Positions 11,585-59,917 of a DNA stretch of 64,000 nucleotides are shown piece after piece. Location of the stretch: contig CAIXAE010000008.1 of assembly GCA_903917345.1 (NCBI GenBank), positions 186,001 through 250,000 of the forward strand, read 5' to 3'. Made by a program: the position numbers and the translations under genes. The number at the start of each line of letters is the position of its first letter. Within the stretch, counting starts at the first letter, position 1. Under the pieces are notes generated by a model. The model saw only the letters and a program-made list of their open reading frames with translations, searched no databases and had not been told where the DNA came from. This DNA is from an uncultured Methylococcaceae bacterium (lineage in GTDB: Bacteria > Pseudomonadota > Gammaproteobacteria > Methylococcales > Methylomonadaceae).

Positions 11585-11588
11585 TTTC

Positions 11589-13473: not shown

Positions 13474-13529
13474 TAGCCATCGATTTTTGGCATATGACAT
13501 AACTCTAAATATCACTTTAACTAAAAGAC

Positions 13530-41421: not shown

Positions 41422-42180
41422 TTACTCTTCTTTTAACTCCAATAACTCATCATCCATACCATAGCGAACTACTTTAATTCTTCCATTGTTGTTGGCAATA
41501 AAATCACCCGTCATTATGGGTAATTGAAAAGGAAATAAAGCGGGATTCGTTAATAAAACCTTTAGTGCACTCTTACCCTCGGGTTCTGCATGTAATCCTG
41601 CCTCAAGAAGTAAAATGGCTACAGCGGGATCATAAATAATTTGAGGCGAAGCCTGTTCATAACAGCCTTTTGAGGAAGAATCTTTCAAAACTTCCCAAGC
41701 GATAAAAGACCGTACGGTATATCTTGCATTACGTGCAACAGTCTCTCTGTCACCATATTGTTCTTTTAAACGATTAAAAACCTGGGCTTGTGTAATTTGC
41801 TCTTGAAGATTAAATAAACGCCCGGTTTGTTTAGCTACATTAAACCAAAAAGGATACGCAGCAGAAATAACCGCCCAATGCAGTGGCAACCATTCAGAAG
41901 TCAGTGACTCTCTGGCGAGGCTTAACGCGTCATCACGAAACTGAATTAACTCTTTATCTGGCGCAAACCAACAAGCAAGGAGAGAGATAGCCATTCCATA
42001 AGTATCTTTACCCCGCTCTCCGATGCCCCCACTTTGTTTCTGGGTACTTAGATAGTCATTCAAATCCACACGAATTTCTTTTTCAGACATGCCCGCCAAT
42101 AACATTTGTACAACCCGATCCATCCAATGTCTTTGAACAGTTTGTTTAATTCCTAATTTTTGATGTCGTTTGCTCAACAA
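41422..42180 (-). CDS. brxA: BREX protein BrxA
   Basis: This 252-residue protein occupies the last position of the operon, where type 3 BREX carries BrxA (DUF1819-type). The pattern fits: helical N-terminus, LARESLTSEWLPLHWAVISAAYPFW, then a winged-helix-like segment VARNARYTVRSFIAWEVLKD near residue 155. BrxA is a small DNA-binding component of BREX. The gene overlaps pglZ by 7 bp. The assignment leans on position and on fold-like patterns. Confidence 0.72.
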   Translation of the reverse strand: MLSKRHQKLGIKQTVQRHWMDRVVQMLLAGMSEKEIRVDLNDYLSTQKQSGGIGERGKDTYGMAISLLACWFAPDKELIQFRDDALSLARESLTSEWLPLHWAVISAAYPFWFNVAKQTGRLFNLQEQITQAQVFNRLKEQYGDRETVARNARYTVRSFIAWEVLKDSSSKGCYEQASPQIIYDPAVAILLLEAGLHAEPEGKSALKVLLTNPALFPFQLPIMTGDFIANNNGRIKVVRYGMDDELLELKEE

Positions 42181-44171
42181 TGTAATTTCCTTTCAAACTT
42201 TATTAAAGGCACCAAGACTTCTTCAAAAGCAATGCCGCCATGACCCACTATTTTTTCACTTGGATTTATAAACGCCTCATGACCGCCCGCAATAAGGGGA
42301 TAATATTGTGGTGGCAAACCAATGGGCTCCCATTCTTGTGCAAAATCTAATGCAGCCGCTGCCTGCGCTCTAAGTTCAAAAGTAGGATAGACTCTAACCC
42401 TCTCGCCTTTTAATTCGGCTATCACTCCTTCAGAAGGTCGGCCTCTGCCTTCACATTCAATATTGCCGTGATCAGACGTCAACCAAACTTGATAACCGTG
42501 TTCCAATAAATAATTAAGCAAGCTACTTAGATAGCCTGCTTGTGACCATTGTTTAATTTGATTATGCATCCCTGCTGAACCCAACTGCATACCGTGCATT
42601 ATTTTGTCGACCTTATCGACGACTAAACCCACTACTTTTGTCTTGCTGGGATTTAAATTTGCGTCTAACACACTTTCCACAACTCCATCGCCCAAGCCAC
42701 GTTGATAAGCAATATCTAAACGAGAAAACCCAAAATCTTCCCAGATTTGCCTCCACAACTTAGCTTCATTATTTGTTGTATTAATCGATAAAGGAAAATT
42801 ACGCGGTATCTTTCCTGAAAATGCAGTTTGCCGTGATACGCTAGTAAGTGTTGGAATCCAAGCAAACGTAACGGACTCTTTTATAGCAAGATGAGACACT
42901 TGTTCTTGTATAAATGGTCGGAGCGTCACCCATTGATCCAGTGCTAAACCATCAACCACCACTAAAGCGATTTTTTTGGCTTTGTTTAATTCAAATTCAC
43001 GAGCTAAATGCCTAGGCACATGATGTAACATTGCAGGCGTAGAGGGTGGCAAATTAATAAGACCCGCATAATTTGTCTTTAACCACTGTGCGAAGATGAC
43101 ATTGCTACCTAAGCTGAGTTGTTTTAACCTCGCTTTAGCCTCTGCATCCTCACCACAATGAACCTGAGCCGCTAATTCAGCATATTTCTGTGCAAAATCA
43201 AGCCAAGCAGAATGTCTACAAGTGATAGTAGGTATAACTTCTTCCAGATATTGAAATAAGCGGGTAAGTCGAACTTTTTCTTCTTCTGGCCCCGAGTCAA
43301 GCAACCCACTTTTTAACCATAAAGCTGATTGGTTAAACGATTTTGGCGCAAGTACCGGTGACAACTTACCTTCAACAAACAAATTATCGATATAGACTCT
43401 AATATCCTCATGGTCAAAAGGTAAAAAAGTCGGGCCTTGATAAATTAGCTGTGTGCTAAGCGCTCTTTCAGACACAGCATTATCTTGACTAAAATGCATT
43501 AAAAAGATTGGCCAACGTTCTTGTAAAAAAGCAAAGAAAGCGCTGGCCTCTGGGACAACATCCTCTAAGGGCCAATTTTTAAAACAAGTGTATTCTTTAA
43601 GCACTTGAATCAAGCGCTCTGTTAGAAGTATCGGTAATTGAAGTTTATTATAATGAAGACGCAATAAAGTTCTTAAGAGCGCAACTTCAGTGGTCAGTAA
43701 ATCTGTTTCAATATTAAAGACATGCTTTAGCATAAAATCTTTAGTGGCTTTATCGCCCAGACGTGCTGGAGTGAATTGTGTCTGCGCCTCGAACAACACA
43801 TCCAACAAGCCCCGATCAAATTGTTCTAGTACTGGATAACTTAAATTAGGAAACAAAGCACCTAAATCAAAGGCTAATTTTCTACCCATGTGAAGCAAAT
43901 CATAAGGTAATGAAGCTAGTTCGTTATTTTGCAAACGAAGAATAATGACTAAATCAGTATTTTCACCTTTATCCCATATAGATCTGTAATTTAACTCATA
44001 CACATAACGGAACTCGACCGGATCAGTAAACTCAAGTAACTCAAACCCTCGTTGAGATAACTCTATCACTAATTTTTCTTCAGTCAGCAAACCATCGGGA
44101 TCAGCCACCAAGGTAAGTTTACTAACATTAGGTACAAAGTCTTTTAGAATGACATCTCGCCAAGTAGCCAT
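42174..44171 (-). CDS. pglZ: BREX phosphatase-domain protein PglZ
   Basis: This 665-residue core BREX protein has a C-terminal PglZ alkaline-phosphatase-superfamily domain. The nucleophile region IALVVVDGLALDQW is near residue 400, TSDHGNIECEGRGRPSEG near 565 and GHGGIAFEEVLVPLI near the end supply the metal-ligand Asp/His residues. All key motifs are present. It overlaps brxHII by one base and brxA by 7 bp, so translation is coupled. Confidence 0.88.
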   Translation of the reverse strand: MATWRDVILKDFVPNVSKLTLVADPDGLLTEEKLVIELSQRGFELLEFTDPVEFRYVYELNYRSIWDKGENTDLVIILRLQNNELASLPYDLLHMGRKLAFDLGALFPNLSYPVLEQFDRGLLDVLFEAQTQFTPARLGDKATKDFMLKHVFNIETDLLTTEVALLRTLLRLHYNKLQLPILLTERLIQVLKEYTCFKNWPLEDVVPEASAFFAFLQERWPIFLMHFSQDNAVSERALSTQLIYQGPTFLPFDHEDIRVYIDNLFVEGKLSPVLAPKSFNQSALWLKSGLLDSGPEEEKVRLTRLFQYLEEVIPTITCRHSAWLDFAQKYAELAAQVHCGEDAEAKARLKQLSLGSNVIFAQWLKTNYAGLINLPPSTPAMLHHVPRHLAREFELNKAKKIALVVVDGLALDQWVTLRPFIQEQVSHLAIKESVTFAWIPTLTSVSRQTAFSGKIPRNFPLSINTTNNEAKLWRQIWEDFGFSRLDIAYQRGLGDGVVESVLDANLNPSKTKVVGLVVDKVDKIMHGMQLGSAGMHNQIKQWSQAGYLSSLLNYLLEHGYQVWLTSDHGNIECEGRGRPSEGVIAELKGERVRVYPTFELRAQAAAALDFAQEWEPIGLPPQYYPLIAGGHEAFINPSEKIVGHGGIAFEEVLVPLIKFERKLHC

Positions 44172-47164
44172 TAAACCAAGCCCTTTCCAAGGTGCAATAT
44201 AAATAGTGGCCTAAGTTCAGGGACAATTTGTTTGGCAGCCTTTAACTCTTTATACCACTCCTTTTCTTCAGTATCGCATTTTGCTAGTCGATATTGCCGC
44301 ACTTCGGGTAAACCAACAGACTCAATGGCTTTACGTCGTGCAGTAAAAGAACGACTACCGCGTTCTTCCTCACGGTTTAGCGCATTTAAATGCGCTTGTT
44401 GTAAGCTATCAAAAGCCTCTTGACCAGCAGGCTCAGCGCTTGCCGACATTTTATCAAAGGCAACTTGAGCCTCTGCTCCGACCAAACTATCAAGGACTTT
44501 AACCTCAACCGTTTGTAAGATTTCCCAGATATGACGTGCTGAAGGCAAAAACACTTTACCCTCCTCAGTCACAAAAACAGTAACATAACGTCGCCGAAGC
44601 GTAGGGATACGCAATAATTTACTTTCTTTATGCGCACCTGCTTCAAGTCTAATTTCAAACAACCCCCACAGACCCTTTAGCGAAGCCGGTAAATCTGGAA
44701 TAAAAACGCAAGGTATTGCTTGACCAATACTGAGTTGAGGTAGCTCAAGCGCTAAGCTTCTAATACGGTTATTTTCTAAATTAAGTAATTTTGACCCGGC
44801 TAGTCGTTCGGCTTCTTGCGTTGTAAACACACAATTTTTTAAACTAACCCCTTCAGGCCAGGTTAAAGTCCAACCACCTCGTTTTTTAGCGACGCTACCG
44901 CCGGCAGACTGAAGATAACTGAGCGTCATTTTTTCTACCCAGTGAGGTAAAGGATGGGAGCGCAAGCGATCTGCAACTAAAAGATCAGGTTGTTTGGAAG
45001 TTGCATAGATAGCTGAAGATTCTTTTACCTCGCGCAGTTCTTCACGAAGTTTTGTTAGTGTTTGTTCAACTGCTGCCTCAAGCGAGTTTGGTTTAAGCAA
45101 GGTTGCCGTAAAAAGCTCTTCAAAGAGCTGGCCGGCTTGGGCAGAATCCAGTACGTCCCCGGTTTTATCGATACCAAATTCTTCAAAAATAATGGCCAGT
45201 TTTTCTTCTAAAACTTCCCTAACCCGAAATTCAACAGAGTCTTCAAAGACAAAATTAAGCGCTTGCACAACTTTACTTTGACCAATACGATCAACACGAC
45301 CAATCCGCTGCTCTAAACGCATGGGATTCCAGGGCAAATCATAGTTAATAACGACATGACAAAATTGAAGATTTAACCCTTCACCACCGGCATCAGTAGA
45401 AACCAAAACTCTTGCTTGGTTTTGAAAAGCTTCTTGTGCCCGTTTGCGCTCTTCCATGGCCATAGAGCCATTCAACGTAACGACGGTAAGCCCCCTTGCT
45501 TCAAGAAATTCTTTTAGCATCGTTTGTGTGGGCACAAATTCAGTAAAAATAAGTATCTTTAAAGCAAGTTCATTCTCACTGGCTTGTAATTTATAAAGCC
45601 AGTCGAGTAAAGCTTCAGCTTTTGCATCAGGGCCGGCTTGCTCACAGTGGCGGGCAGCCCTGAGTAGCGTTTCAACATGAGCGCATTCTAAATGCAAGGC
45701 CTCGCCCTTTAGTTTTAATAAATCGTCTAGTTGCTCCTGACCAGCTTGGTCATAGAACTCCTCCAAGGTATCGCTTGTTTCCAGGTCAGCTTCACGCTCT
45801 TCAAGCGGTAAAGCGTTTTGCTGTCGGTTTTCTTGAAGTACGATAAGGCGTCGTTCTAAGGTCGTACGAATAGCCCGGGTACTCGAAACGACCAAGCGTT
45901 GCATTAAAATCATCAAAAAACCGAAATGCCGTTTTTTATCAAGCAACGCTTGGTTATAGCCTTCACGTACATAATCGCTGACTGCTTCATATAACTGCTT
46001 CTGTAAAGCATGCCTAGACTCCCATTGAACGGCTACCATTTGTGTGCGTCTGGGTCTAAATAACGGCTTACCCTCTGCCGTCAAGGCGTTACGTTTTTCG
46101 GTACGAATAACAAAAGGGGCGACGCGTTGACGCGTCACGCTGCCTTGCTCAGGAAAGGCTTCAGCATCAAGTAGTGTTAACAACCGATGAAAAGCATCAC
46201 TTTTACCTTGGTGTGGCGTTGCTGATAAAAGAAGTAGATAAGGCGCTGCTTCAGCCAAACCACGGCCTAATTTATAACGGGCGACTTGCTCACTGCTACC
46301 GCCTAAACGATGCGCCTCATCAATAATAACCAAGTCCCAACCTGCTGTTATCAAATCTTCAAAGCGACTACTGTTGTACTGGTCAAGCTTTTCTTGACTC
46401 CAGCCCCGGCGTTTTTCTAAGGGTTTAACGGAATCCAACGAGACGACAACTTGAGTAAAGGTCCGCCAAGGATTTGCTTGTTGCCAAGTATCCGGTTCCT
46501 CCAAGTACTGTAGCTTGTTTTGTTGTGTCCAGTAACGTGCCTGGCCACCGCCGTTCATGCGTTTTAAGGTCGCGAGGTCCTCACCTAAAATCAATTGAAA
46601 ATCTTCAGAAAAATGGGTGCGCATTTCACTAAGCCACTGGGTCGCCAAGCCTTTAGGTGCCACTACTAAGGTTCTACGTACCAAGCCGCGTAATTTTAGC
46701 TCGCGCAGGACTAAACCGGCCTCAATCGTTTTACCCAAGCCCACTTCATCTGCCAGTAAATAACGTATACCATCACCGGCAACGGCACGCGTTAAAGCTT
46801 CTAGTTGATGCGGTAAAGGAATAACGTTACATTCCATGGGAGCCAATAATACCGGCCCCTCTGTGCCAGTACTTCCACCTTCTAATACTTCGGCTACTTT
46901 AGCCGCAGAAGCAATATAACCAATCCGAAAGCCTTCAAGTTCCGGTGAAAGCTGAGCGATCAGTGGTTGTAAAGCAGAACGTGGAAGGCGTACAACTATA
47001 TCTTGAGTGGGCAGCCAAACACGGCAAACTGTCTGTCCCCATAAAGTTTGTTCATCGAGGAGTTTGCAGGCGCAGTTGTGGGTAGTGCTGAAGTACCAAG
47101 ACTCAAGAGGTAATTTCGCCAGCTCATCAGGCGATGGTTTTGCTTCGGGCTTATTCGTATCCAT
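44171..47164 (-). CDS. brxHII: BREX Snf2-type helicase BrxHII
   Basis: This 997-residue SF2/Snf2-like helicase has Walker A LADEVGLGKTIEAGLVLREL (near residue 140), DEAH in VIIDEAHRLGG (near 280), LLLSATPHQGK, and the C-terminal motifs VSTDAGGEGLNLQ and EQRIGRVDRIGQ (near 600-640). BrxHII is the type-defining helicase of BREX type 3 and lies directly before pglZ. It starts 20 bp after the 92-residue unknown gene. Motifs are intact. Confidence 0.87.
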   Translation of the reverse strand: MDTNKPEAKPSPDELAKLPLESWYFSTTHNCACKLLDEQTLWGQTVCRVWLPTQDIVVRLPRSALQPLIAQLSPELEGFRIGYIASAAKVAEVLEGGSTGTEGPVLLAPMECNVIPLPHQLEALTRAVAGDGIRYLLADEVGLGKTIEAGLVLRELKLRGLVRRTLVVAPKGLATQWLSEMRTHFSEDFQLILGEDLATLKRMNGGGQARYWTQQNKLQYLEEPDTWQQANPWRTFTQVVVSLDSVKPLEKRRGWSQEKLDQYNSSRFEDLITAGWDLVIIDEAHRLGGSSEQVARYKLGRGLAEAAPYLLLLSATPHQGKSDAFHRLLTLLDAEAFPEQGSVTRQRVAPFVIRTEKRNALTAEGKPLFRPRRTQMVAVQWESRHALQKQLYEAVSDYVREGYNQALLDKKRHFGFLMILMQRLVVSSTRAIRTTLERRLIVLQENRQQNALPLEEREADLETSDTLEEFYDQAGQEQLDDLLKLKGEALHLECAHVETLLRAARHCEQAGPDAKAEALLDWLYKLQASENELALKILIFTEFVPTQTMLKEFLEARGLTVVTLNGSMAMEERKRAQEAFQNQARVLVSTDAGGEGLNLQFCHVVINYDLPWNPMRLEQRIGRVDRIGQSKVVQALNFVFEDSVEFRVREVLEEKLAIIFEEFGIDKTGDVLDSAQAGQLFEELFTATLLKPNSLEAAVEQTLTKLREELREVKESSAIYATSKQPDLLVADRLRSHPLPHWVEKMTLSYLQSAGGSVAKKRGGWTLTWPEGVSLKNCVFTTQEAERLAGSKLLNLENNRIRSLALELPQLSIGQAIPCVFIPDLPASLKGLWGLFEIRLEAGAHKESKLLRIPTLRRRYVTVFVTEEGKVFLPSARHIWEILQTVEVKVLDSLVGAEAQVAFDKMSASAEPAGQEAFDSLQQAHLNALNREEERGSRSFTARRKAIESVGLPEVRQYRLAKCDTEEKEWYKELKAAKQIVPELRPLFILHLGKGLV

Positions 47165-47184
47165 TCGTTATTTTAGATTTAGTT

Positions 47185-47463
47185 TTACTTTATCCCGACA
47201 CGTTCTTGAAAGGTTTTTTCGCAAGTATCACCAGATATGGCCAGATCATACTCGCGTAAAATAGTTTCAAGTTGTCTTAACTGGTTCATAACATCACGCA
47301 TAAACTCAACAGTCTTAGGCTCTAACTCGAAGCCATAATGATGATCACCTTCTTTGATAACCCGATGTTCATAAGAAATGTCGTTATATTCGATATCGTG
47401 TGCCAATTGTTCAGCGATATTTCCTAAATAAGATTGTTGATGGTCAAAATGTCCACCGCTCAT
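47185..47463 (-). CDS. Small acidic protein of unknown function inside the defence operon
   Basis: This 92-residue protein starts MSGGHFDHQQ, a recognisable start of a widespread small-protein family of unknown function that I have no name for. The rest is helical and acidic, with a SGDTCEKTFQERV end. The ATG at 47463 follows GGGA and is preferred to a GTG four codons earlier. It sits between the Gabija-like pair and brxHII, 72 bp after the helicase gene and 20 bp before brxHII. Confidence 0.6.
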   Translation of the reverse strand: MSGGHFDHQQSYLGNIAEQLAHDIEYNDISYEHRVIKEGDHHYGFELEPKTVEFMRDVMNQLRQLETILREYDLAISGDTCEKTFQERVGIK

Positions 47464-47535
47464 AATATTTCCCACTGTTTCACAATGTAATTAAAAAATA
47501 GATTCATCATTACTTTTTGTGCTTTAGAAAACATC

Positions 47536-49416
47536 TTATCCATCCAAAACCCCCATTTCCGTCAAGAAACGAGACGGTTTTTTTGCCCATCCGAAGTATT
47601 TCTTCGCATAACTCAGATACAAGTATCTTGAGGATCTCGTAATGGCTACAAAGCAACTTCTTCGTTCTTCTTGAATTGATTTATCGCCATTCTTGATAGC
47701 AAAATAAGTAGGGAATTGGTCTTCGGCTAAACCAATAATAAATACATTATCAAACTCCATACCCTTAGCTGTATGTACCGTTTGTAGCCTGACACAATCT
47801 TTGAGAAGCACTTTTGATTTGGGTGTTAAATCTAACTCTTGTAAAAACACATGCAGACTTACGCCTTCGCCGTGTTCTCTGTGAATATCATCAGAGATAC
47901 GATGCCAATTAACTTTGTCATCACTATAATCTGGGTAAAAGTCATCATCGCTGAATTGTTTATTTAAAATATCGAAGCATTGAAATGACTCGAGCACAAA
48001 GGACTTAAAGTCCATAAAGTCACACAAGGTTCTTTGTCCAAGCATACAAAAGTCTAACAATGATTCACTTTCAGATGCCATAAGAAAAAAAGCTCGAAGT
48101 ATTGTGATTGACTCAACATTCGCTTTTGCGACAACATCTTCCGCAGAAAGAGTAATTCCATTAATTAGAGTTGTGACTGAACAAAGTTTATTTAGAATAC
48201 TTCGGGAGTCAGGAGCATTAGCCAATTTGATCGAATAATACAGCGTTAACACAAGTGAACTAGTAAAATCTTGATGTTTATTGACTATTTCTGCTTCAAT
48301 TCCTCTATTTTTCAACGCTGCCTGTGCCTGTGACAATAATTTATTGCTCCTCGCAATAACCAAGCAGCTTTCACGCTGATTTTTTGGGATTACCTCAAGT
48401 TCAGCGATTAAGCCTTCGACTTCAGCATCCAAATCACTAAATTCTGCAATTTTTATTACACCTTGTTTTTGGCTATGCGAAACACCTATTTCTTTTGCTT
48501 CTAACCGATTAGAATTATGGGCAATTAAGCGGTTAGCAATGTCAACTACTTCTTGCGGACAACGGTAATTCTCTGGAAGCTGTATGATTTTCGGTAGATA
48601 GTCCTTTTTTAACGCCTCCAATCTCTTGGGGTCGGCACCATTCCATTGAAAGATCACTTGATCGTCATCTGCAACAACAAAAAGATTAGCTGTGTTTGAT
48701 TCGGCTAACAACTTAAGAATTTTATATTGTGCCAGGTTAGTATCCTGAAATTCATCAACGCAGATATAGCGGTAAACCGTTTTTACCTGACGAGCAATGC
48801 GAGGCATGGTCTCAAGTAATTTTCTTGAGAAATACAACATCGAACCAAAATCAAGTTGATTGCCTTCTGTCAATTTTTGCAAATAACCTTTGAATACAGC
48901 TTGTAGAATAAGACAAGATTCTTGTTGCTCCTCTTTAAAATGAGCGGGTAAATCCTCTGCGTTAATACCATGCGTGAACATGATATCAATCTTCTTCAGC
49001 AAGTCTTCAGGATCATCAATCTCAATTATGTTCTGGTCTTTCAGTTCCTTAAGAAGTGCAATTCGATCCTTGTCATCAGTAATAACCGAAAAATCCGGGC
49101 GTAACCCTAAATGACTGCCGTGTTGCCTCAGAATATCCGTACAGAATGAATGAATTGTACGAACCTGAATTCTGCGATTGTTTTCGCCAAGTAGTTCTTG
49201 GATACGTTTCTGCATCTCGTTTGCTGCTTTAACGGTAAAAGTAACCCCCAATATTCGATAAGTCTCATCCGGGTTATTTCTAATCAAATTCGCAATGCGT
49301 AAAGTAAGAACAGCCGTTTTTCCTGAGCCTGGGCCAGCTAATACCAATAGCGGGCCATCAAGCCATTCCGCAGCTTGGCGCTGATTTTCATTTAAGGTGT
49401 CAACAGTCAGGCTCAT
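47536..49416 (-). CDS. gajB: Gabija-like UvrD/PcrA-type helicase (GajB-like)
   Basis: This 626-residue SF1 helicase has Walker A AGPGSGKTAVL (near residue 31), TFTVKAANEMQ, VRTIHSFC (near 85), the DEFQDT box (near 226), LPENYRCP (near 285) and VHTAKGMEFDNVFI (near 545). A UvrD-type helicase encoded by an ATGA overlap behind an OLD/TOPRIM nuclease is the Gabija layout. GajB senses nucleotide depletion and DNA ends and works with GajA. It is longer than the best-known GajB (about 500 residues). Confidence 0.82.
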   Translation of the reverse strand: MSLTVDTLNENQRQAAEWLDGPLLVLAGPGSGKTAVLTLRIANLIRNNPDETYRILGVTFTVKAANEMQKRIQELLGENNRRIQVRTIHSFCTDILRQHGSHLGLRPDFSVITDDKDRIALLKELKDQNIIEIDDPEDLLKKIDIMFTHGINAEDLPAHFKEEQQESCLILQAVFKGYLQKLTEGNQLDFGSMLYFSRKLLETMPRIARQVKTVYRYICVDEFQDTNLAQYKILKLLAESNTANLFVVADDDQVIFQWNGADPKRLEALKKDYLPKIIQLPENYRCPQEVVDIANRLIAHNSNRLEAKEIGVSHSQKQGVIKIAEFSDLDAEVEGLIAELEVIPKNQRESCLVIARSNKLLSQAQAALKNRGIEAEIVNKHQDFTSSLVLTLYYSIKLANAPDSRSILNKLCSVTTLINGITLSAEDVVAKANVESITILRAFFLMASESESLLDFCMLGQRTLCDFMDFKSFVLESFQCFDILNKQFSDDDFYPDYSDDKVNWHRISDDIHREHGEGVSLHVFLQELDLTPKSKVLLKDCVRLQTVHTAKGMEFDNVFIIGLAEDQFPTYFAIKNGDKSIQEERRSCFVAITRSSRYLYLSYAKKYFGWAKKPSRFLTEMGVLDG

Positions 49417-51125
49417 TGGTCATCTCCCTCGATTTTCGAAAGCTTGGTTAGAATGTCTTTTATTTCACTAGGTACGCCATCCGGGCCTTGTTCTTTCATT
49501 AAAAGAATTGCTTCAAGTGCAGCGGCAGGCTTTGAAAATCCTCGAAAATTCTTGATGATTTTATACACCTGATTCCAGTAGGCATAAGAGTCAACTGGTT
49601 CAGTTAATTCAGAAATTTTCTGTGGAACTACTCCATCTCGATACGGTTTGCCGTAACCAGCACGACATAAAAGGACATCAGTATTTGGACTAGAAAGTTT
49701 GGTGATATAGTCGGCATCTTTTCGTCCATCAAGAAGAGTTTTGGCGGCAGTAATATACCGTTGACCGCCCTCATCATTGTCAGCAACGACATGCCATTTT
49801 ATTCCAAGAGCATCAGCTACTTTGATGAAAATACTAGGTCCACCAGCTTGACTAACCTCTATCAGGCGAATACCCATTTGATGTAAATTGACTCCAAGAA
49901 TATCGGCACATTCAACAAAGACGGAAACTTCAGTTTCGCCCTCAACCAACAGCCAATATTTTGCAAACAACAACTCACCACGATTTCGTTTGACGTGATG
50001 ATTGAATTTTCGTAAATCTTCCTCTGAAAGCAGATTATTAGGGATAGATTTACATTCAGTTGTAGTATGGGTCTTATTTAAACGCCGCAATTTATCAACC
50101 GGCACTTCTGACAAAATATCACCAGAGTGTGTGGCAATGATCTTTTGTCCAGGTAACGTTAATATTAATGACCATAACGCACGGATAGCATTTGGATGAA
50201 GATGCGCTTCTGGTTCTTCAATTGCTATAATGGGATCAGCAAACTTATCTATATCGGCTTTTAACCGGGTTTTCATGTACGCACTGAAGAGTAAAAGCAC
50301 AGAAAGACTTTGTGTCCCCTCGCCATGACTTCGTATTGGTATTTTGGCATTAGAGCCGGTAAGAAGATTGACCTCTGTATAACGTAATGCCTTGTAAACA
50401 TCAGCTGCAATTGGATCTACAGAGACAGAATCTGCTTTCCCCACTGATACTAGCTCCGATATACGCTTTACTTCCTCAGTAACATCCTTGAAGCTCGTAT
50501 GTGCATCGACAATCTTCTGATTCACATTGCTAAGCTCTTCTTCAAGCGTTTTTCTCGTGTCTTCGTCAATGTCTTTATTTTTTAAGAATGACGACCAGTA
50601 AGTCGATTGCCCATGAAACTCATCTTTGGCTGAACGCAACGCAGTTTGAAAGAAAAACGGTCGCAACCGACGTAAATCTTTAAGCAAGCCTTGTTTGCCG
50701 AGCATTTCATTGTCGGCATCATCAAGGAAGCACCAACTTTGTGTTAGATTGGCATCGCTAGCCACATATTGAGCGGTTAACTGTAGCTTAATCATTGCAT
50801 AAGCACTTCCGACGATCACATCATTAAGTGTTTGAATACAGTAGTCAGGCCAAAGATATTCTTCAGTTTCTGCAAAGTAGAAGGTAAGCTGGATCGGCTT
50901 GCTAGATGCAAGATCATTACATTCACCATTGCGATGGAAGTCGTGTTCAGAAAAGTTACAGGTTTTATCGGATTTGATTGTTTCCAGACCAAAACGAAGT
51001 GCTTCAAGTACAGTGGTCTTGCCGCTATTGTTCTCACCAATAAGTACAGTGATGTCACGATCAAGCTCTATTTCAAGTGACGTTATTCCACGAAAATTTT
51101 CAATCTTTAGCCGATTAAGACGCAT
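49413..51125 (-). CDS. gajA: Gabija-like OLD-family ATPase/TOPRIM nuclease (GajA-like)
   Basis: This 570-residue protein has an N-terminal ABC-type ATPase (Walker A GENNSGKTTVLEAL near residue 31, SHGEGTQSLSVLLLFSAY signature near 270, IAIEEPEAHLHPNA near 305) and a C-terminal TOPRIM nuclease domain (LLVEGETEVSVF near 400, VVADNDEGG near 455). This architecture and length match GajA of Gabija, an ATP-inhibited site-specific nuclease. It starts 1 bp after the pglX fragment and overlaps the helicase by 4 bp. Confidence 0.85.
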   Translation of the reverse strand: MRLNRLKIENFRGITSLEIELDRDITVLIGENNSGKTTVLEALRFGLETIKSDKTCNFSEHDFHRNGECNDLASSKPIQLTFYFAETEEYLWPDYCIQTLNDVIVGSAYAMIKLQLTAQYVASDANLTQSWCFLDDADNEMLGKQGLLKDLRRLRPFFFQTALRSAKDEFHGQSTYWSSFLKNKDIDEDTRKTLEEELSNVNQKIVDAHTSFKDVTEEVKRISELVSVGKADSVSVDPIAADVYKALRYTEVNLLTGSNAKIPIRSHGEGTQSLSVLLLFSAYMKTRLKADIDKFADPIIAIEEPEAHLHPNAIRALWSLILTLPGQKIIATHSGDILSEVPVDKLRRLNKTHTTTECKSIPNNLLSEEDLRKFNHHVKRNRGELLFAKYWLLVEGETEVSVFVECADILGVNLHQMGIRLIEVSQAGGPSIFIKVADALGIKWHVVADNDEGGQRYITAAKTLLDGRKDADYITKLSSPNTDVLLCRAGYGKPYRDGVVPQKISELTEPVDSYAYWNQVYKIIKNFRGFSKPAAALEAILLMKEQGPDGVPSEIKDILTKLSKIEGDDQ

Positions 51126-51126
51126 C

Positions 51127-53505
51127 TTAATCAGCTCCTAAGCGTGTTACAGCTTGGTCATACCACATCAAAAGTTTGGGATCTTCTTCGAGAACATTGT
51201 TGGGTATTTTATCAGCGACAGCGACGATGGTGGCGTAGTCGCGGTCTTGCCAACATTTCTTAAAGCCGGCACGAACGGCTTCCAAGCGGAAGACTTTAAG
51301 TTTTTTGCTGGCTTGTTTGTAGTCCCCAAATTCTTTAAGTAGTGCTCTCTCACGCAGTTTCTCAAGATCACCTGCTTTGTTGGGATCCGGTAAATACCAA
51401 CGATCACTGGCTTTGGCAACTAAGCTTTTATCGTCTTTTGGCAAGTTACGGAGTTCTTTCCAATTAGTAGAAAGATATGCGTGAATCTGCTCAGGTACTA
51501 ATTCTTTACCGTCATAGCACAGGAAGTTTTGGTTAAGCAGTTCACGAAGATCAAGCTGTTCTTCATTTTTATTCCAGCCGCCAAGATGCTGCATAAACTG
51601 TGGGTTGATGTCAGAGAAGGGTTGTGGTTTTTCTTTAAGTAATTGACGTAGCCAATCAATCATTGTGGCTTCATCTTTTATCCATATTTCTGTATTTATT
51701 GGAATACCACTGGAGGTCATTTTTTTGCGGTCGTATTCAGCGACTTGGTCGGGCAGGAAATACATTCCATCCCGCTCTATAAACCTTTGCGCCAAGCCAC
51801 TTTGGAATTCTTGACTGGAAATGGGTACTGGATAACCAGATCGGACAAAATAAGTAATTATTTGATCAAAAAGAATACGAGGATCTCTTTCAGGAACCAT
51901 TTGTAGAGAAACACCCTGGCGTTTAGTGACTGGCAAGTATTTTAAGTGCGTGCGAATAAAGTCCCAGACACCTTCCTCGGTTTGAGCTTCTTTTTGAAAG
52001 CGTTCTTCAAAGCCACCGTTTGGTTTATAGGCAGAAATTACAAGATCCTGCTTAACAGCTGTTGGTGTTGTAACAGCTTTGAAACTGCCTTGTTGTTTAT
52101 CCAGTGCAGAGACATTGGCAACGATGAATCCTGCTTCTGTTAATGCTGTTTGGATACTATTCCAAACAGATGCTTTAGTATTAGAAAACTCTACCGTCAT
52201 CCAGCGGCCAGGTTTTAGAATTCGATACGCTTCTTTAAAGCATGTAGTCATAAGGGAGCGATACTCAACCGAACCCTTTCCTTGCGTGCTGTTTTCGATA
52301 GCTTCAGGAATGTTATTTGTCCAGGCTTTGAGCCATTGCTCCCATAAAGAACTTAGCTCTGAATAGTTCAAGTTAGCACCGAAGGGAGGATCAATAAAAA
52401 TATAATCAGCTGATATACTACTTTTATTTGTGGTTGACTGAGTACTTATTATGCATGTGTTCTCAATGCCTTTAAATGCTGCTACAAGTTTTCTTAATTT
52501 GTTTTTGTATGCTGTGAATACGCAAGATTCAGATACCTGTGAACCAATATACATTGTCCCACTTAGTGGATTGTAGGGGAATGAGACACCAGGGCGATAT
52601 CTATTAAGCTTACTAATATTAATTAATTGAGCGTTAAAAAGAAGTAGTAAAGAACTAGTTTTACATTGATTTCTAATTGCAGAAAGAATCCACAAATTCC
52701 TTTTCGTGTAAAAATGATGCACATGAGTAATGCCGATAGAATCATTTCTACGAGTTTCCTTACCTACCATCATACGATCAGTTGGGAACCAATAGGGAAT
52801 TTCAGTATTTTCAATCTTTTCGATTAATTTTAGATCTGTTTCATCTGGTATTTTCTCTGTCTGCTTGCCATTAACAACATAGTTAATTAATACTGGTACT
52901 TGTTTGGCTTGGCGAATTGAATCACTTAATACATAATCAAATTTATTGATCCAGGCACGTTCCATATTCCTCTTTTTCAAACTAGATGAACAATACGGAC
53001 ATGGAAACTCATCTAATACCTTGCCCGCATCTTTATCAACTGCCGCTTCCCAAAAAATAACTTCATGGCTACATTCAGGACAAATAAAGACGTCAGACCA
53101 AACCGTATAGTTGATTTTACCTTTGGATTTTCCGTCACTGTGAAGGGTTTCATACATCCATCCACATTCTGCCTCTACTTCCTTAAGCATTCGGGTTGCT
53201 TCCTTTTCAAAAGCGACGATATCTACAGATGTATTGTAGTTATAAGCAATAAACGTGGCAGCTGGTGACAAGTCATTAAGAACTGCACGACGCACGCCAA
53301 TATTAGAAAAAGCCGCCCATGTTTTTTTACCATTTTCATCAATTTCTTCTTGTAAAATAGTGCCATCCAGCTTTACTTGATAACCTAACTCTAGGACTGC
53401 ATTTTTATCCCCGCACATTTGAGCGGCTACACCCGTCATACCAGTTCCACAGAAGCCGTCATATACTATATCACCTGGATTGGTGTAATGTAGGATGTAG
53501 CGCAT
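51127..53505 (-). pseudogene. pglX: BREX methyltransferase PglX, C-terminal 792 codons (split gene)
   Basis: This is the main part of a Zn-ribbon adenine DNA methyltransferase of the BREX type 3 PglXI kind. It begins at MRYILHYTNPGD and carries the SAM motif DGFCGTGMTG, CPEC/CPYC zinc knuckles near residue 140, and catalytic DPPF in FIDPPFGANL near residue 375. The normal N-terminal part, with the NLSDPPYYTACPNP motif, is in a different frame just upstream and overlaps it by 35 bp. About a dozen expected residues between the two parts are absent, so a short out-of-frame deletion is likely. An ATG is present here, so the fragment might still be translated. Confidence 0.75.
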
Positions 53506-53869
53506 TATAAATGGGATGGTTCTTGCCTTCGCTTACATCTGCAGCAAACGGCTCACGATGATAATGATAATCCTCAGGCTGGGCTGGTTTTTGCGCTTCC
53601 CATTCGGCAATAAATTCACTCAGCCAAGGGTTTGGACACGCGGTGTAATAAGGAGGATCACTTAGATTAAGAATGTCTTCATCTTCTCCGTGCGGGAAGC
53701 CTTCAATTTTACGAAATTCGGGATCTTGGAGCTTTTCACGCAATAAAGCAGTAAAGTGCTTGCGCCGCTCCTCTTCACTTGCAAAAGTCTGTCCTAAACA
53801 CGTAACCGGTCCAGAGGTTTTGGCTGTTGTTTCTTGTTGAAGTCCCTCAAATAGCGTTGTTTGGCTCAT
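53471..53869 (-). pseudogene. pglX: BREX methyltransferase PglX, N-terminal fragment
   Basis: These 132 codons hold the PglX N-terminus, with a FASEEERRKHF helix, GEDEDILNLSDPPYYTACPNPWL near residue 70 and the EGKNHPIYNA motif near residue 116. After that it runs into 9 out-of-frame residues and a stop. In intact homologues as I recall them, PIYNA is followed by a segment like HSYHTKVPHKAI and then MRYILHY, which is where the second fragment begins. The start overlaps the AlbA_2 gene by 4 bp. Confidence 0.75.
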
Positions 53870-55662
53870 TTAGTCATCCGTTGTTGTTCTGGTAAGTTTT
53901 TACACAACGCCTGTCCGGCAGGTGTTAGGCGATATTTTTGGGTTGGACTCTTGGGTGAGGCGGGCTGAGTCATTTCGAGTAAGCCTTTAGCCAAGCCCGG
54001 CTGTAGATAGTCATAGGTAAAACTTGGTCGATGTCGTAAGTCCAGCGCCTGCATAATATCGCGCGTCCCTAGTGGGGCTTTTTCAAGACAAAGGAGCAGG
54101 CGTTTTACTTGTTCGGTTACTTGTTCGGTTACTTGTTCGGTTACTTGCTGGGTTAGTTGTTCCTGCTTTTGTTTGCTCTTGTCGAGTCCCGCCTGACTAA
54201 AGCGTTTTTTCATAACCGGAGCCAGTTCGAAAAGGCTTTCAGCAAGCTCTACCAACAAGACCTGTTGTACGAGACCAGTAGCTAAGGCTTTTGCTTGGAC
54301 GTGCGTGCAATTAGTCAGGGCGCGAAGGTCGGTTAGCGATACGCGGTCCTGTTCTGTTGCGTAAGCTAAAACGGAAGCTTCTTGAGCACTTAAAGAGACA
54401 CCAATACTTTGTTGAAAAGCCTTCTGTTCCGGTGTTAGCAGTATTTCTTTACGTAAAATGAGCTCAAAGGTCTTTTTGGCTTTGTCATTGTGTAGTTCCG
54501 GCGGCACGTTACCTAAGTCATGCCAATTTCGAAAGATAGAACGAATACCGGTACCGGCTTGGTCGCTCATGCCAATGCGGCGAAAGGCTTTGACGATTGC
54601 CGGATTACGCACTTCTTTTTCGGTCGGGTCGAGCAATTCTTCTGCGGTGTTGAAAGCGTCACCGGGATTCCAGAAAACAGTCTGATCGGTAAAGAATTTG
54701 ATTGCCGGTTTACGCGTGTGGTCGCCGTAATCTTGATGAATCAATAGATTAATGGCCGCTTCCCGAAAAGACACATAGTCGGGCGGGTCATCATTTCGAC
54801 GTAAGGTGGTGGGATCTAGCGAGAACGGATGTTCGGCAATACGCATGTATTTACCCACTAAACCTCGCCAGGTCTTGAAGATGTTTTCTTCGAAGATCAT
54901 GCGGTCATGCCAGCGTTCCTCGGGAGACCACTGAGCAAAAGGGGTGTCGATACGTTGATAATCAAGTACAGGGCGTGGCAGAATTTGGCGTACACACCGC
55001 TCTGTACCAAACAGTAAGACGGCCGCTCGTGTTGGAACCAGGCGCTCAGCGTCTTCGAGCAAGAAATTCCAGGTGTACAAAAAATCTAAATTAGAGTCTG
55101 CTTTTTGATGTTCTGGGTTGCGACGTTCAAATTGTTGGCGATACCAAGAAACGGTTTCTTCATCAAATACTGTTTCTACTTTAAATTCAGGCAAAGGTGC
55201 ATTATCGTAGCGTTCTTGGTCGGCATCCCGCAGTAAACGCCTCAATTCGCCATCGCTGCATTTTACGTCTGCACCGCCTTTGCGAATAAAGGCTCTTCGA
55301 AGGTCACCATTAAGATAAACAGGCTTTTCTGTTCTTGTGGCTTCAGGGATGTAAAAAATAAGCAGGTCTTTACCCTTAAGGGAATAGAGCTGTTCTTTGA
55401 CGTCAAGGATTTGACTGATTTTATCCCGTTGCCTTAAAGCAGAAATAAATTCATTTTGCACTTTATCGACGTCAAGCACGCCGACTACTTCAAAAGCAGG
55501 ACCTTCTTTTTTAATACCAAAAACTAAATGGCCACCGGCTGTATTGGCAAAAGCGGCTACTGTTTCATAAGCATTTTTGGGAACGGCTTGTTGAGCTTCT
55601 TTAAACTCAATATCTGACCATTCGTGTGCACTTAGCAAGGCTATAAGTTCTTCTTGTGTCAT
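53866..55662 (-). CDS. AlbA_2-domain ATP-binding regulator in the BREX operon (COG2865-like)
   Basis: This 598-residue protein has an N-terminal AlbA_2/Schlafen-like domain (EWSDIEFKEAQQAVPKNAYETVAAFANTAGG is the pattern region, residues 15-45). A middle region with FREAAINLLIHQDYG and GTGIRSIFRNW resembles HATPase_c_4. A C-terminal winged-helix part follows a linker of repeated TEQV units. Such proteins are often annotated as transcriptional regulators or RecG-like. Position between brxC and pglX (2 bp after brxC, overlapping pglX by 4 bp) suggests a regulatory or anti-phage role in this BREX. Confidence 0.78.
   Translation of the reverse strand: MTQEELIALLSAHEWSDIEFKEAQQAVPKNAYETVAAFANTAGGHLVFGIKKEGPAFEVVGVLDVDKVQNEFISALRQRDKISQILDVKEQLYSLKGKDLLIFYIPEATRTEKPVYLNGDLRRAFIRKGGADVKCSDGELRRLLRDADQERYDNAPLPEFKVETVFDEETVSWYRQQFERRNPEHQKADSNLDFLYTWNFLLEDAERLVPTRAAVLLFGTERCVRQILPRPVLDYQRIDTPFAQWSPEERWHDRMIFEENIFKTWRGLVGKYMRIAEHPFSLDPTTLRRNDDPPDYVSFREAAINLLIHQDYGDHTRKPAIKFFTDQTVFWNPGDAFNTAEELLDPTEKEVRNPAIVKAFRRIGMSDQAGTGIRSIFRNWHDLGNVPPELHNDKAKKTFELILRKEILLTPEQKAFQQSIGVSLSAQEASVLAYATEQDRVSLTDLRALTNCTHVQAKALATGLVQQVLLVELAESLFELAPVMKKRFSQAGLDKSKQKQEQLTQQVTEQVTEQVTEQVKRLLLCLEKAPLGTRDIMQALDLRHRPSFTYDYLQPGLAKGLLEMTQPASPKSPTQKYRLTPAGQALCKNLPEQQRMTK
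54107..54154 (-). repeat. Four tandem 12-bp units encoding TEQV repeats
   Basis: ACTTGTTCGGTT occurs three times exactly and a fourth time with two changes (plus-strand view). The unit length is a multiple of three, so copy-number slippage would change the length of the protein linker without breaking the frame. Confidence 0.85.
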
Positions 55663-55664
55663 TT

Positions 55665-58600
55665 CTATTCCAACACAATACGTACTTTAGCTACATCTTT
55701 ACCACGAGTCAGTTGATCGATATAACTATCAAAGCGTTTTTTAATTTCGGTTGGTGTGGCGGGGCCTTGAGTAACTTGTAGGGCTTCTTGTAGGCTTTCG
55801 ACTTTAACCGTGATTTTAATTAAGCCTGATAACACTTCTTTTAAAGTATGCACAAAATTATTTTCTAAAGGCACGGGTAATTGACTGGTTTTAATAAAGT
55901 CTTCGAGTGGTTTACGTTCTTCAGCCTTAAGCAGTTCTAAGTTTGCCTGTGTCATTGGATCTTCAAGATTACTCAACAAAGTATTGGTCCAGCCAGCGAC
56001 TAAAGTGTCTAACTGATTATCCAATTGCTCAAGGAGCAGTGAACCACCCGAAAAAGTCCCTTCAATTGATGGTCTAAAGCCACAATGAGGACAGGCGGGA
56101 GCACTTTCTAAATTTTGCTCTGTGAGGGCAAAACAACTTTTTAAAGCGACTAATCGATTTTGAAAATCGGTGAGCTGTTGTCTAGGCAATAAATCTATGA
56201 TGACCAATTTATTAAGGGTTTGTAAGCGTTCATCATTCAATAAGGCGGCTTTACGTTTATCCTCATTCAACCCTAACCGCGCTTGGGTATGTAGTTTTAT
56301 ATAAATTAAATTAAAATCTTTCTTGAGTGCTATCAGTTTAGTATTGATTGCTTGAGACTGACTAGAAAGATTGGTTAATTCAGTTTGCTCAAGCGATTGT
56401 AAAATATCTAAACGTGTCATTTTCATTCTATCTACCCACTCATGTTCGGCGGGTAAAACGCTTTCTGCATTTGCTAACCAAGTGGCTATTTGACTTTGAT
56501 TTACTACAAAGTCTTGTAGCTTAGCCAAAGTACTTAGGTTTGTAATTGCTTTTTCATGGACAGTGACTTCCGCAACAGTGTAATTAAAATTCTTTAATTT
56601 ACCTGGGCTGGTGTAGGCTTGTAAGGCTTCAAAAAAGTTTTTAGCTTGAAGTAAACTAGTGCTATATTCACTTTTAGCAGCGTCACTGAGTAAAGGCAGT
56701 CCCCAAAAAGAAAGGCCCTCTCTGAGTGTTTGCTGTGTTATTACCAGACGGTTAATAAGCTTGGTTATTTCTTGTTGCAGATTTTGAACAGGTTCTTCAT
56801 TACCTTGTGTTACCAATTGAGCCAACCCGGGCGTCATGCCTAATAATTCAAATAAGGCTTTTAAAGCTGGCAAATTCCATTCTTTGGGTTGTTCTAAATG
56901 TTTAAAACGAATGAGTTCTTCTAGGCTGGTTCCTGCAAGCTGGGGTAAAGCTGTGGCATCAAATTTTTTACCTGGTATTGCCAGCACCAACTCGCCCGAA
57001 TAAACTAAACTGGCTAGAATAACGATCACCCATTCAACTTCTAAGCGCGCACTGTTTGGTTCAAAATATTCAAGACCTACGTTATCGTGGATTAATTCAT
57101 TTCTGTTTACAACTTGACCATGACCTTTGGCGTGCAAAATCTCTAAGATACTTTTTGCGTAATTAGATTTGTTGGGTTCAATCTTTTCACCATCCAGTAA
57201 ATTAAGCCCATCTAAAACAGCGGTTGCTTGTTTAGTTCGGTTTTGACCAGCCAGGGCACGTAAGGCATCTTGAACTGCTTGATTTCTGTTATTTCCAGTG
57301 ATTAATATTGAGAAGTAAGGATAGGCGGGTGCTTGTTCGGTAAAGTTGGGTGTTAAACAAACACCCGAAATGGTATTAACCAAATCTCTAAAATTTATAA
57401 CCTCATTGGGTGATACGCCAGACAAGTCTCGTAATGATTTTCCTGCTTCTTTAGCCCAATTGGAAAAGTTTTTAGTTCTGCCTTGGTAGGTCACTTCAAA
57501 ACAATCATGAATGTTTTTTTGTAGCCATTGCACTAAGTTTTTAAGAAAACCATGTGCTTTAGCTTCATAAGTCGCTTTAGCGTGTCCTGATGAGGTTGCA
57601 GCAAGGTCTAAAGAGGCAGCATAGTTTTTAAGTGCCGTTTGGAAACTTTCATCGGGTTCTTTAAGTTTAAAGAAGACTTCATCACCTTGCTTATCATCCT
57701 TGTAACGTGGGGGATCATTAGGTTGAAGAAAATACAGATAAAAATCTCTTTGTGGCACAGCAGTGGACCGTTCATTAGGTGCCCCAAAGAATAAATAACC
57801 CGTTCTAGCTGCTTTGTGTTCTTGCCAGATTAACTCATGTTGCCATATTTTATAACCTGTCACATAAGTACTGTCTTGACACTCCATTACTCGTTTTAAG
57901 GCTTCATAGTAAAAACGATCTAATTGAATAGAGCCCAAACTGTCCGCTCTTTTTTCAATTAAGGCATCAAAATCATCGGTCTTTTTTAAATCTAAATAGA
58001 ATTGACGGTTATTAGGATTTGAAGAAATAAATTGGCCATTCACCGTTTTATGAATTTCTCGCAAAACGGTTTCAACATGAGTTTGTAAATCTTTATCGGG
58101 TTCGTCACTGCCCATTTCAGCTATTAACGGATCAAACAGACATAATCTATCTCTTAGCTCTTCGGGTGTTGCACCCATTGGTGCGTATATATCTCCGGTT
58201 GTTAACCGATGTACAGAAAGCGCATAAATTAAACGCAAAGCCATGGGTTTATATTGCTTACGTGTAATGGCATTTTCGATGCGTGCTTCTAAGACTTGGC
58301 TACATTCAATGACGTCTCGAATTTCTGGTATTGCTCTGAAAGCTGCGTTTTGTTTAAGTGTTGCCCAATAACTATCAAAAGCAATAAGACCCGGCTCATC
58401 AACAGGGATTTCTTTATCAATGAGATCTTGCATTGCACGAGAGAGTGTCTTTAATATTTCGCGTTTTTCTACTACTGTAACTCTCTCAAAAGTATCTATG
58501 TAATCTGGGTGAACAGGGAAAAGATTAACAAATTCGTCTAAGCGTTCATTTAAATTGCCATAGTATTTGGCAAAAGGCATTAGGTACGCACGGATTTTTA

Positions 58601-59414
58601 CTTGCTGCTCAGCATTTTTCTTAAGTAAGCGTTCTGACACTACAAATTTAATGTCATTTCTAGCAATAAGTATTTGTTCAAAGCGATCTTTAACACGCCG
58701 TACGCTATCAGCAACGAAAGCAAATCGAGGGCTATCAAATATGGCTTCTTGTACACCAGCTATAAAGCGAAAACGCAGATCTTTACAGACTTCTCCTACT
58801 TCGCGTAAAAAATTTAAATCTAAAATAAGTTCTTGATCTCTTCGTGTACGAAGATAATCTAATAATTCGTCAACCACTAATAATAAACCTTGCTCAGGAT
58901 ATACCTGTGCAAATTTATCCATCATATCTTCAAAGGCTTGTTTATGATTTATGAGTGTATTTGCTTCTGGAAATACATAATCAACACCCATTTTTTCTAA
59001 CTTTTCTTCTAGCTCTGCGAGCAAAATATCGCGTAACGACATTTGAGTTGCACCGATCTCTGTCCGTATGACTTTGAAGCGGCCAGCTATTTGTTGCGCA
59101 GCTTCTACGACAACTGGATTGGTAAGTGCCGAAAGCAAAGAAGCATCAGCGGCTAGACTAGACACAACCGACATTAAATGTGACTTACCGGTTCCGTAAT
59201 TACCTACAATTAACAGACCTTTATGATCTATTTGATCCTCAACAGGATCTTCGAAGCGTATTTGAGGAAAGACGAGTTTAGTTAAGCGCTCTTCCATTTC
59301 TTTGGAAATAACATAAGTGCTGACAAGACGATGAGCTGAGCTGGCTTTATCTGCATCACGAAGTTGAACAACCGACTCAATGGGGTCGAAGTGAATCAAT
59401 TCACCGTATTTCAT
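55665..59414 (-). CDS. brxC: BREX AAA+ ATPase BrxC (DUF6079 type)
   Basis: This 1249-residue core BREX ATPase begins with a [15 protein letters not shown] segment. Walker [17 protein letters not shown] is near residue 71 and the Walker B-like [14 protein letters not shown] near residue 180. A CPHCGFRP zinc-knuckle-like pair lies near residue 1115. BrxC/PglY proteins are large P-loop ATPases essential for BREX defence. It starts 38 bp after brxF. The open frame is intact over its whole length. Confidence 0.88.
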
Positions 59415-59452
59415 GTTAGTCCTAGATTTAATTAGTGGGATATTAGGTTTTA

Positions 59453-59917
59453 TTAGGCTTTATTCAAATCAACAATCAATAAGTCTTTAAGTTCGTAACT
59501 TTGGTATTCAGGATGACCGGGCTCAGCGTAAATAAGTTTATCTCCGCTAATTTTACCATTCCAAGAAGCTAAAACAGTGCTATTCCTTGAGAGACCTTGG
59601 ATAAGCTTTAATGCATCTTGCTGTAAATGTTTATCAAATAGGATTTCAAGGTTATCAAGTATCAAAAATGGTTTTGATACTTCTGTAATTTGAGTTAATA
59701 ATTCAGGGAGGACAAGTGTGCGTTGTTTCGCGCTGAGTTCAAGAAGTTCTTTGGAAAGTGCTAAATTAATATTGATTACTTCTAAATTACGTTCGTTTGC
59801 AAGCTCTCGCAAATATAGTGTTTTGCCAGAATTAGCCTCACCGACCAACAAGAGTAAACGATAGTAAAGTCCTTCTGCAGTTTTTAATGTTTCAATTATT
59901 TTTTCTTTAATCTGCAT
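59453..59917 (-). CDS. brxF: BREX small P-loop protein BrxF
   Basis: This 154-residue ATPase has Walker [19 protein letters not shown] near residue 22 and a Walker B-like [13 protein letters not shown] near residue 87. A short P-loop protein directly before brxC is characteristic of BREX type 3. It is the first gene of the operon. The ribosome site before the ATG at 59917 is weak (AATAGTCACT upstream), which could lower expression. Confidence 0.82.

Follow-up and report, generated by a model that had tools for sequence, protein, structure and literature searches.

How should a complete pair of Gabija genes be interpreted when it lies inside a type 3 bacteriophage exclusion (BREX) operon: as a working part of that operon, or as something that happens to be lodged there? 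This question is raised by a stretch of 64,000 nucleotides from an uncultured Methylococcaceae bacterium, probably a methanotroph (positions 186001-250000 of contig CAIXAE010000008.1, in a genome of 2.48 Mb and 45 contigs), which we call the window and whose numbering we use throughout. Its minus strand carries, in order, brxF, brxC, a gene for a Schlafen/AlbA_2 protein, pglX, gajA, gajB, a small gene, brxHII, pglZ and brxA. We consider it probable, at roughly 0.7, that these genes form a composite defence operon, in which a type 3 BREX system took up a Gabija module in the slot between pglX and brxHII. Because it would have been taken up in that slot, the module is predicted to be transcribed with BREX and to move with it.

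The six core genes of type 3 BREX are present on one strand and in the expected order, with insertions between them (all coordinates of operon genes refer to the minus strand). The product of brxF (59453..59917; 154 aa) matches the NCBIfam model BREX_3_BrxF with 181.6 bits against a cut-off of 50, and brxC (55665..59414; 1249 aa) encodes a DUF6079 ATPase that scores 1997 bits with PADLOC's BrxC model and 1824 bits with PF19557. The helicase encoded by brxHII (44171..47164; 997 aa) reaches 1465 bits with PADLOC's BrxHI|BrxHII model; pglZ (42174..44171; 665 aa) scores 979 bits with PADLOC's PglZ and 812 bits with NCBIfam's BREX_PglZ_3, and brxA (41422..42180; 252 aa, with a TTG start as listed) 302 bits with PADLOC's BrxA. 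An earlier description made from the letters of the window (the sequence-only reading) had proposed the type 3 order brxF-brxC-pglX-brxHII-pglZ-brxA. The core and its order stand, according to both PADLOC and NCBIfam, but pglX does not stand as a single gene: it consists of two overlapping open reading frames (ORFs), a break that had been overlooked and to which we return below.

The two inserted genes of most interest lie between pglX and brxHII, where they had been placed before. gajA (49413..51125; 570 aa) encodes an OLD-family ATPase fused to a TOPRIM nuclease, and gajB (47536..49416; 626 aa), which adjoins it with a 4-bp overlap, encodes a UvrD-type helicase. In the hidden Markov model comparison that could have assigned this pair to a family other than Gabija, GajA matched PADLOC's PDLC00094 with 820 bits over positions 1-565 of 569, and GajB matched PDLC00114 with 848 bits over residues 2-625. 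GajA also matches the TOPRIM family PF20469, and GajB matches PF00580 and PF13361. PARIS (AriA/AriB) was considered and rejected, as the TOPRIM and ATPase parts are in one protein, the partner is a helicase and the score with AriA is 126.6 bits against 819.7 with GajA; the score with Old is 118. The motifs of GajA are kept: Walker A (G30-T37), Walker B (E303-E304-P305), E395, D449, D451 and K522 are invariant in four aligned members of the subfamily, and we take these residues to have the ATPase and TOPRIM roles usual for such motifs. The best matches of GajA in the Protein Data Bank are the solved Gabija GajA chains (E ~1e-10, phmmer). Judging by sequence, the pair is Gabija of a divergent subfamily (PDLC00094, PDLC00114) rather than a near copy of the Bacillus system, and it looks functional. 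In a relative with 58% identity (L004:79-1769), gajA occupies two overlapping frames, and is broken or mis-assembled there.

The junctions around gajA are tight. The sequence-only reading had given spacings of -4 to +1 bp, and we measured +1 bp from pglX to gajA and -4 bp from gajA to gajB; the small gene follows gajB after 60 bp (72 bp if it is counted from the ATG common to its relatives), and brxHII follows the small gene after 20 bp. The tight junctions fit the co-expression that had been proposed from them, and the same site behind pglX is used again in two genomes of other genera of the same family. In one of these (G446), Gabija is directly behind the pglX of a type 3 BREX locus that is cut by the contig end. 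The other (G480) has a type 1 BREX operon with the order brxB-brxC-pglX-gajA-gajB-ptuA-ptuB-pglZ-brxL according to PADLOC (L154, G480:C25:13001-33000), where ptuA matches the C-terminal part of its models alone. This operon thus has Gabija and Septu-like genes in tandem between pglX and pglZ, i.e., two extra systems in one BREX operon. gajA begins 1 bp past the stop of pglX in the window, 5 bp past it in G446, and overlaps it in G480; in all three, a purine-rich stretch resembling a ribosome binding site is seen by eye inside the end of pglX. The idea of separate capture gains support from the two host operons being of different BREX types, with GajA proteins only 40% identical.

We compared the window with 36 stretches containing type 3 BREX genes (L089-L124), of which 30 are from genomes and six are among the seven plasmid records found with BrxC, and with an extra contig of G446 (L155), giving 37. 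The genome stretches were found by PF19557 searches of 274, 301 and 398 genomes, which are overlapping samples, and weaker or shorter hits, e.g., partial 182-bit hits in G191 and G704, were left out. A slot was called filled if the interval exceeded 500 bp, the window was excluded, and cargo ORFs were scanned in part. With G292 counted as two loci in each tally and G446 as two in the first, the brxC-pglX interval (slot 1) is filled in 18 of 26 measurable loci and the pglX-brxHII interval (slot 2) in 11 of 18. Type 3 BREX therefore has two cargo slots, whose contents change. Slot 1 of L108 holds a PtuA-like gene. Slot 2 holds HEC-01A-like and DUF4276 genes with a small gene starting MSGGHF (L089), Ppl-like and AlbA_2 genes with a small gene (L094), Ppl-like, AlbA_2 and HEC-03B-like genes (L113), a HEC-03B-like gene (L110), an NsnC-like gene with an AAA/DUF3696 gene (L112), a PIN gene (L108), HEC-02A-like ATPases (L097 and L103), an AAA ATPase of equal length (L095), a UvrD-type helicase that scores up to 150 bits with GajB models beside a 436-aa protein without assignment (L098), or a 499-aa protein without assignment (L105).

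Three alphaproteobacterial plasmids (L119-L121) resemble the window in having the six core genes in the same order and, in two of the three, an AlbA_2-type gene between brxC and pglX, but their pglX-brxHII slot is empty and their pglX is open. Two further loci were noted. In L116 (G293:C1:702000-719000), type I restriction-modification genes lie at about 7400-14430, between brxC remnants and brxHII; they are HsdM-, HsdS- and HsdR-like according to PADLOC, the HsdM- and HsdR-like genes also according to Pfam, and no pglX was found in this locus. In a Klebsiella sp. plasmid (L122, AP022422.1), brxF, brxC and the front of pglX are followed by an arsenic-resistance operon instead of the remaining type 3 genes.

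The gene in slot 1 of the window (53866..55662; 598 aa) encodes a protein with Schlafen/AlbA_2, HATPase_c_4 and Fic-like C-terminal parts, matching PF04326 (65 bits), PF13749 and PF21247 above their cut-offs. Full-length orthologues occupy slot 1 of six other type 3 loci (L093, L100, L109, L111, L120 and L121), with 47-79% identity in the alignment, and E14, E19 and K21 are invariant in the seven orthologues; we presume these residues to be catalytic. In L100, an SfsA-family gene (5396-6112, minus strand) lies between the AlbA_2 gene and pglX, which is an unusual companion. The small gene in slot 2 of the window (47185..47463) encodes a predicted protein of 92 aa, counted from the ATG common to its relatives and starting MSGGHF. 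It shares 57% and 47% identity with the small slot-2 proteins of two other type 3 loci. Its other relatives are in two plasmid records (Thiothrix and Pseudomonas silesiensis) and one Synechococcus phage, listed twice; in the Thiothrix plasmid region, the sole one opened, no gene around the relative is named as BREX. We therefore rejected the idea that the 92-aa protein is a BREX-specific part, given its relatives on plasmids and in a phage. Its predicted structure is a helical hairpin of low confidence (mean predicted local distance difference test score 69.9, from a three-row alignment).

The AlbA_2 and 92-residue genes are thus further insertions, between brxC and pglX and before brxHII, respectively, as had been noted. 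What does not survive is the proposal that they and the Gabija pair make up one four-gene cargo as a distinct variant: the AlbA_2 gene often occupies the other slot, also in Gabija-free loci, the 92-aa gene accompanies other slot-2 cargo in L089 and L094, and Gabija is a separate element. Base composition gives no sign of insertion, as the guanine-plus-cytosine fraction is 0.409 in gajA, 0.388 in gajB, 0.385 in brxC, 0.398 in pglZ and 0.402 in the window.

Part of the cassette is shared with a genome of the same genus (G539), one of whose contigs (L002) aligns to the window over 7,763 bp. In its first 4,948 bp, which contain the tail of pglX, gajA, gajB, the small gene and the start of brxHII, there is one difference from the window. 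Within brxHII, 32 of 2,236 positions differ in the 5' part, and 154 of 713 positions differ in the aligned 3' part (7051-7763 of L002). Across brxF, brxC and the beginning of the AlbA_2 gene, a second G539 contig shares 97.9% identity with the window; for another contig, carrying brxC-AlbA_2, the overall figure is 82.6%. Outside the operon, the background between the two genomes is 85% identity over 11.3 kb of a 20-kb query, along with two pieces of less than 160 bp at 68-69% identity. Because there is one difference in 4,948 bp against this background of 85%, the comparison indicates that the cassette was exchanged recently between species and that one edge of the recombined segment lies inside brxHII. 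The G539 pieces (L002, L101 and L102) are also a mosaic, being near-identical to the window in parts and 71-80% identical in the 3' part of brxHII, which suggests recombination between BREX copies or mixed strains.

Several points weigh against the composite-operon reading. The G539 contig is only 7.8 kb long and comes from a metagenome-assembled genome, 75% complete, so mis-binning could mimic transfer; the alternative to exchange is that the shared block is a mis-binned short contig. As to the mechanism, GajB has 626 aa compared with 493-499 in the solved GajB chains, and it is nearer to PcrA (1e-67) than to solved GajB (3e-16), with PcrA, Rep and UvrD all better matches; the Bacillus-type mechanism would be transferable by family membership only, without close homology. 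The window's GajA was found in none of the 18 measurable slots 2 of other type 3 loci (tblastn, E 1e-5). L093, which is cut at its contig end within gajA and thus lies outside these 18, does have a match there, 73% identical to the window's GajA over 223 residues. The BREX label is not significantly clustered on the GajA tree, since 79 of 500 shuffles are as low. This tree of 14 rows has at least two changes of the label when L003 and G183 are counted as non-BREX; the contigs of both end just before or within gajA, and one label change is possible if they are in BREX.

The distribution of the Gabija subfamily also counts against our reading. We defined the subfamily by more than about 36% GajA identity and found it in 13 places, four of which are in BREX (the window, G539, G446 and G480). 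The other nine (G183, G232, G586, G595, G615, G619, L003, L004 and L194), all from outside the order, show no BREX gene on the sequence available, although the contigs of G183, G615, G619, L003 and L004 break off inside gajA or fewer than 400 bp from where it starts, so that BREX genes upstream are possible. Because nine of 13 places show no BREX gene, Gabija does not need BREX, and a restriction of the subfamily to BREX was rejected. In a sample of 301 genomes of the order, GajA-like hits (E up to 1e-20) occurred in 17 places of 15 genomes. Four of these belong to the window's subfamily, namely the four places just named, all in BREX; the other 13 are distant Gabija (26-32% identity) without a match to type 1 or type 3 BREX on the sequence fetched, which for several is a short contig. 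A search of 344 genomes from the phylum (E up to 1e-60) found GajA in 17, 16 of them besides the window: four of the subfamily (664-801 bits) and 12 more distant (207-279 bits). The only match that BREX queries of types 1 and 3 gave in these 16 was a 113-residue helicase stretch in L205 and L213, and the several kb of flanking sequence on either side of Gabija in L201 and L202 match no protein of either BREX type. Plasmids searched with GajA gave 663 records, all below 60% identity, with 40 among the matches listed at 24.6-31.8%. Viral contigs searched with the GajA alignment gave six loci, and the sole one compared, L194, had no BREX match. In G232 (L163, G232:C208:1-16000), the Gabija pair is co-directional with genes for a DpdE-like helicase, a DrmMI-like methyltransferase and a PD-(D/E)XK-like protein. 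The helicase, about 6 kb from Gabija, is 28% similar to BrxHII, but scores 723 bits with PADLOC's DpdE against 210 with BrxHI|BrxHII; given the DrmMI-like methyltransferase beside it, we rejected this neighbourhood as BREX and regard it as Dpd/DISARM-like.

A further difficulty is the broken pglX. The 5' fragment (53471..53869; 132 aa) matches positions 3-118 of PADLOC's 919-position PglXI model, and the 3' fragment (51127..53505; 792 aa), in a different frame, matches positions 131-918 of the same model. The frame is lost at a deletion of 41 bp relative to five aligned relatives, with no further indel within the aligned stretch; all other genes of the operon are single open frames. All five relatives have the lost stretch, which encodes Y-H-T-K-V-P, and this presumably resembles part of the motif for the S-adenosylmethionine cofactor site of such methyltransferases. 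An intact pglXI methyltransferase gene, which is expected of type 3 BREX, is thus lacking in this assembly. Elsewhere, pglX is one open frame over the matched part in 20 of the 22 other type 3 loci judged; the exceptions, L097 and L123, are split at other places, and transposase-like ORFs lie between the pieces in L123 (by eye). By eye, the ends of the deletion resemble each other, and slippage between similar ends could have made it. In type 1 BREX, BrxX/PglX is among the proteins needed for defence and methylation, according to the available part of one report (PMC11842806). We infer by analogy that the same applies to type 3. Because pglX is broken and PglX is assumed to be needed here too, BREX is probably off in this genome, unless the break is an assembly error.

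Such an error could indeed have produced the deletion, which again weighs against our reading. It is conceivable, at well under even odds, that the break is an assembly or consensus artefact and that the operon is a fully working BREX system with Gabija as extra cargo. The 792 open codons of the second fragment and the open pglX in the 20 other loci are what this explanation would lead one to expect, and the like ends of the deletion could mislead an assembler; however, a clean loss of 41 bp is unlike a homopolymer error, and the assembly has 45 contigs and 99.8% completeness. The only pglX stretch found in G539 spans residues 510-792 of the fragment, i.e., not the deletion site.

We regard it as unlikely that Gabija is a passenger, inserted where a decaying BREX operon tolerates it, driven by its own promoter and linked to BREX neither in function nor in regulation. 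This explanation draws on the occurrence of the same subfamily without BREX (L201, L202 and, beside the DpdE/DrmMI-like pair, L163) and on the state of pglX, which is broken in the window and not open in L097 and L123 either. It is at odds with the +1 and -4 bp junctions and the start signal inside pglX, with the use of one and the same site behind pglX by three loci that belong to two BREX types, and with the open frames of the remaining operon genes. An opposite proposal, which is equally tentative, is that the placement behind pglX was selected, such that translational linkage ties Gabija to the status of BREX and makes it a fallback when phage inhibitors or a pglX lesion disable BREX. If so, several BREX types would be docking frames, in which the slot after pglX takes up nuclease modules again and again. 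Finally, it is very improbable that the two pglX ORFs are translationally coupled and their products assemble into a split but working methyltransferase, since, despite an overlap of 35 bp and an ATG at 53505 for the second ORF, about 13 codons, Y-H-T-K-V-P included, are gone between PglXI model positions 118 and 131, and a split at this place occurs in none of the 22 loci judged.

Under the composite-operon reading, one promoter upstream of brxF most likely drives the operon, and a single transcript would read through it, so that Gabija would be made together with BREX. We scanned both strands for promoters and terminators and compared the results with shuffled sequence. There is no excess of promoter-like sites (29, against a shuffle mean of 40.2) or of terminator-like sites (19, against 18.1), and the scan neither supports nor rules out internal promoters. 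No ORF of at least 60 aa lies in the 443 bp that separate brxF from the next ORF listed (60361-60765). GajA has been described as a nicking endonuclease inhibited by nucleoside triphosphates and deoxynucleoside triphosphates (PMC8136825), and GajA-GajB as a 4:4 assembly that degrades phage DNA (PMC10781630), in the parts of these sources available to us. The window's pair resembles this system in its OLD-type ATPase-TOPRIM GajA adjoining a UvrD-type GajB, with catalytic motifs kept, and differs in its remote sequence, its larger GajB and its location inside BREX. By analogy, the GajA-GajB complex would cut or nick DNA once nucleotides fall during infection, and Gabija might come into play late, as a second layer after BREX. 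The Schlafen/AlbA_2 protein would add a third layer, probably of RNase type; its domain set is near that of Schlafen RNases with a C-terminal kinase-like part and winged helix-turn-helix that have been linked to BREX in an excerpted survey (PMC12839542). Methylation and restriction by BREX have most likely been lost in this genome through the pglX deletion, and with BREX off, Gabija, perhaps together with the AlbA_2 protein, would be the working part of the cassette.

The sequence-only reading had treated nested defence within BREX as a known phenomenon, and the available portions of three sources agree (PMC8565348, PMC10799925, PMC12839542). BxaP is a defence gene between PglXI and BrxHII of type 3 BREX, which protected E. 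coli without BREX and is rare, occurring in 21 of 7308 metagenome-assembled genomes with BREX (PMC10799925). It resembles our case in being a defence gene in the same slot, but it is a single protein of another kind, while the window has a two-gene Gabija module and the 92-aa gene. BrxU is a second defence gene, between brxC and pglX of the type 1 BREX of pEFER, with complementary protection according to the title (PMC8565348). BrxU is a type IV restriction enzyme resembling GmrSD, and the BREX system around it carries brxL; in the same slot, the window has the Schlafen/AlbA_2 gene instead. The survey of BREX nucleases reports, in BREX and BREX-related core loci, nucleases with OLD-ABC ATPases in at least 1242 taxa and the above Schlafen RNases in at least 1017 taxa, and it places Gabija among OLD-TOPRIM operons (PMC12839542). 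Neither a type 3 BREX carrying both gajA and gajB, nor a tally by slot, nor a broken pglX is found in the part of the survey available to us, although its supplementary data S4 may list such loci. Among the papers listed in searches of a partial library, no title or abstract opening reports a complete Gabija pair within type 3 BREX. Cargo inside BREX, even in the pglX-brxHII slot, is already published; the full Gabija pair in that slot appears to be new.

The locus illustrates how bacteria stack and swap defences within one gene block, and it offers a definite example, open to cloning, of two defence systems that differ in mechanism and probably share a transcript. Natural comparisons are at hand: loci whose slot is empty or filled with other cargo, a type 1 BREX that combines Gabija with Septu-like genes, and a broken BREX with an intact-looking Gabija. 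It therefore becomes testable whether nested modules are fallbacks for BREX failure. On the practical side, a tool that calls type 3 BREX at this locus could report a system whose methyltransferase gene is broken.

Two minor features flank the operon. Matches to phage endonuclease families (HNH/endonuclease VII type) lie on either side of it, at 40565-41398 on the plus strand and 60361-60765 on the minus strand, the latter match being weak (E 3e-4). Farther out, the plus-strand region 61695-62106 includes a gene for a Phd/YefM-type antitoxin (PF02604, 30.9 bits against a cut-off of 29.8). It is overlapped by an 84-aa ORF that has no Pfam match and by eye resembles the tail of a PIN toxin, and the two are possibly a broken toxin-antitoxin pair.

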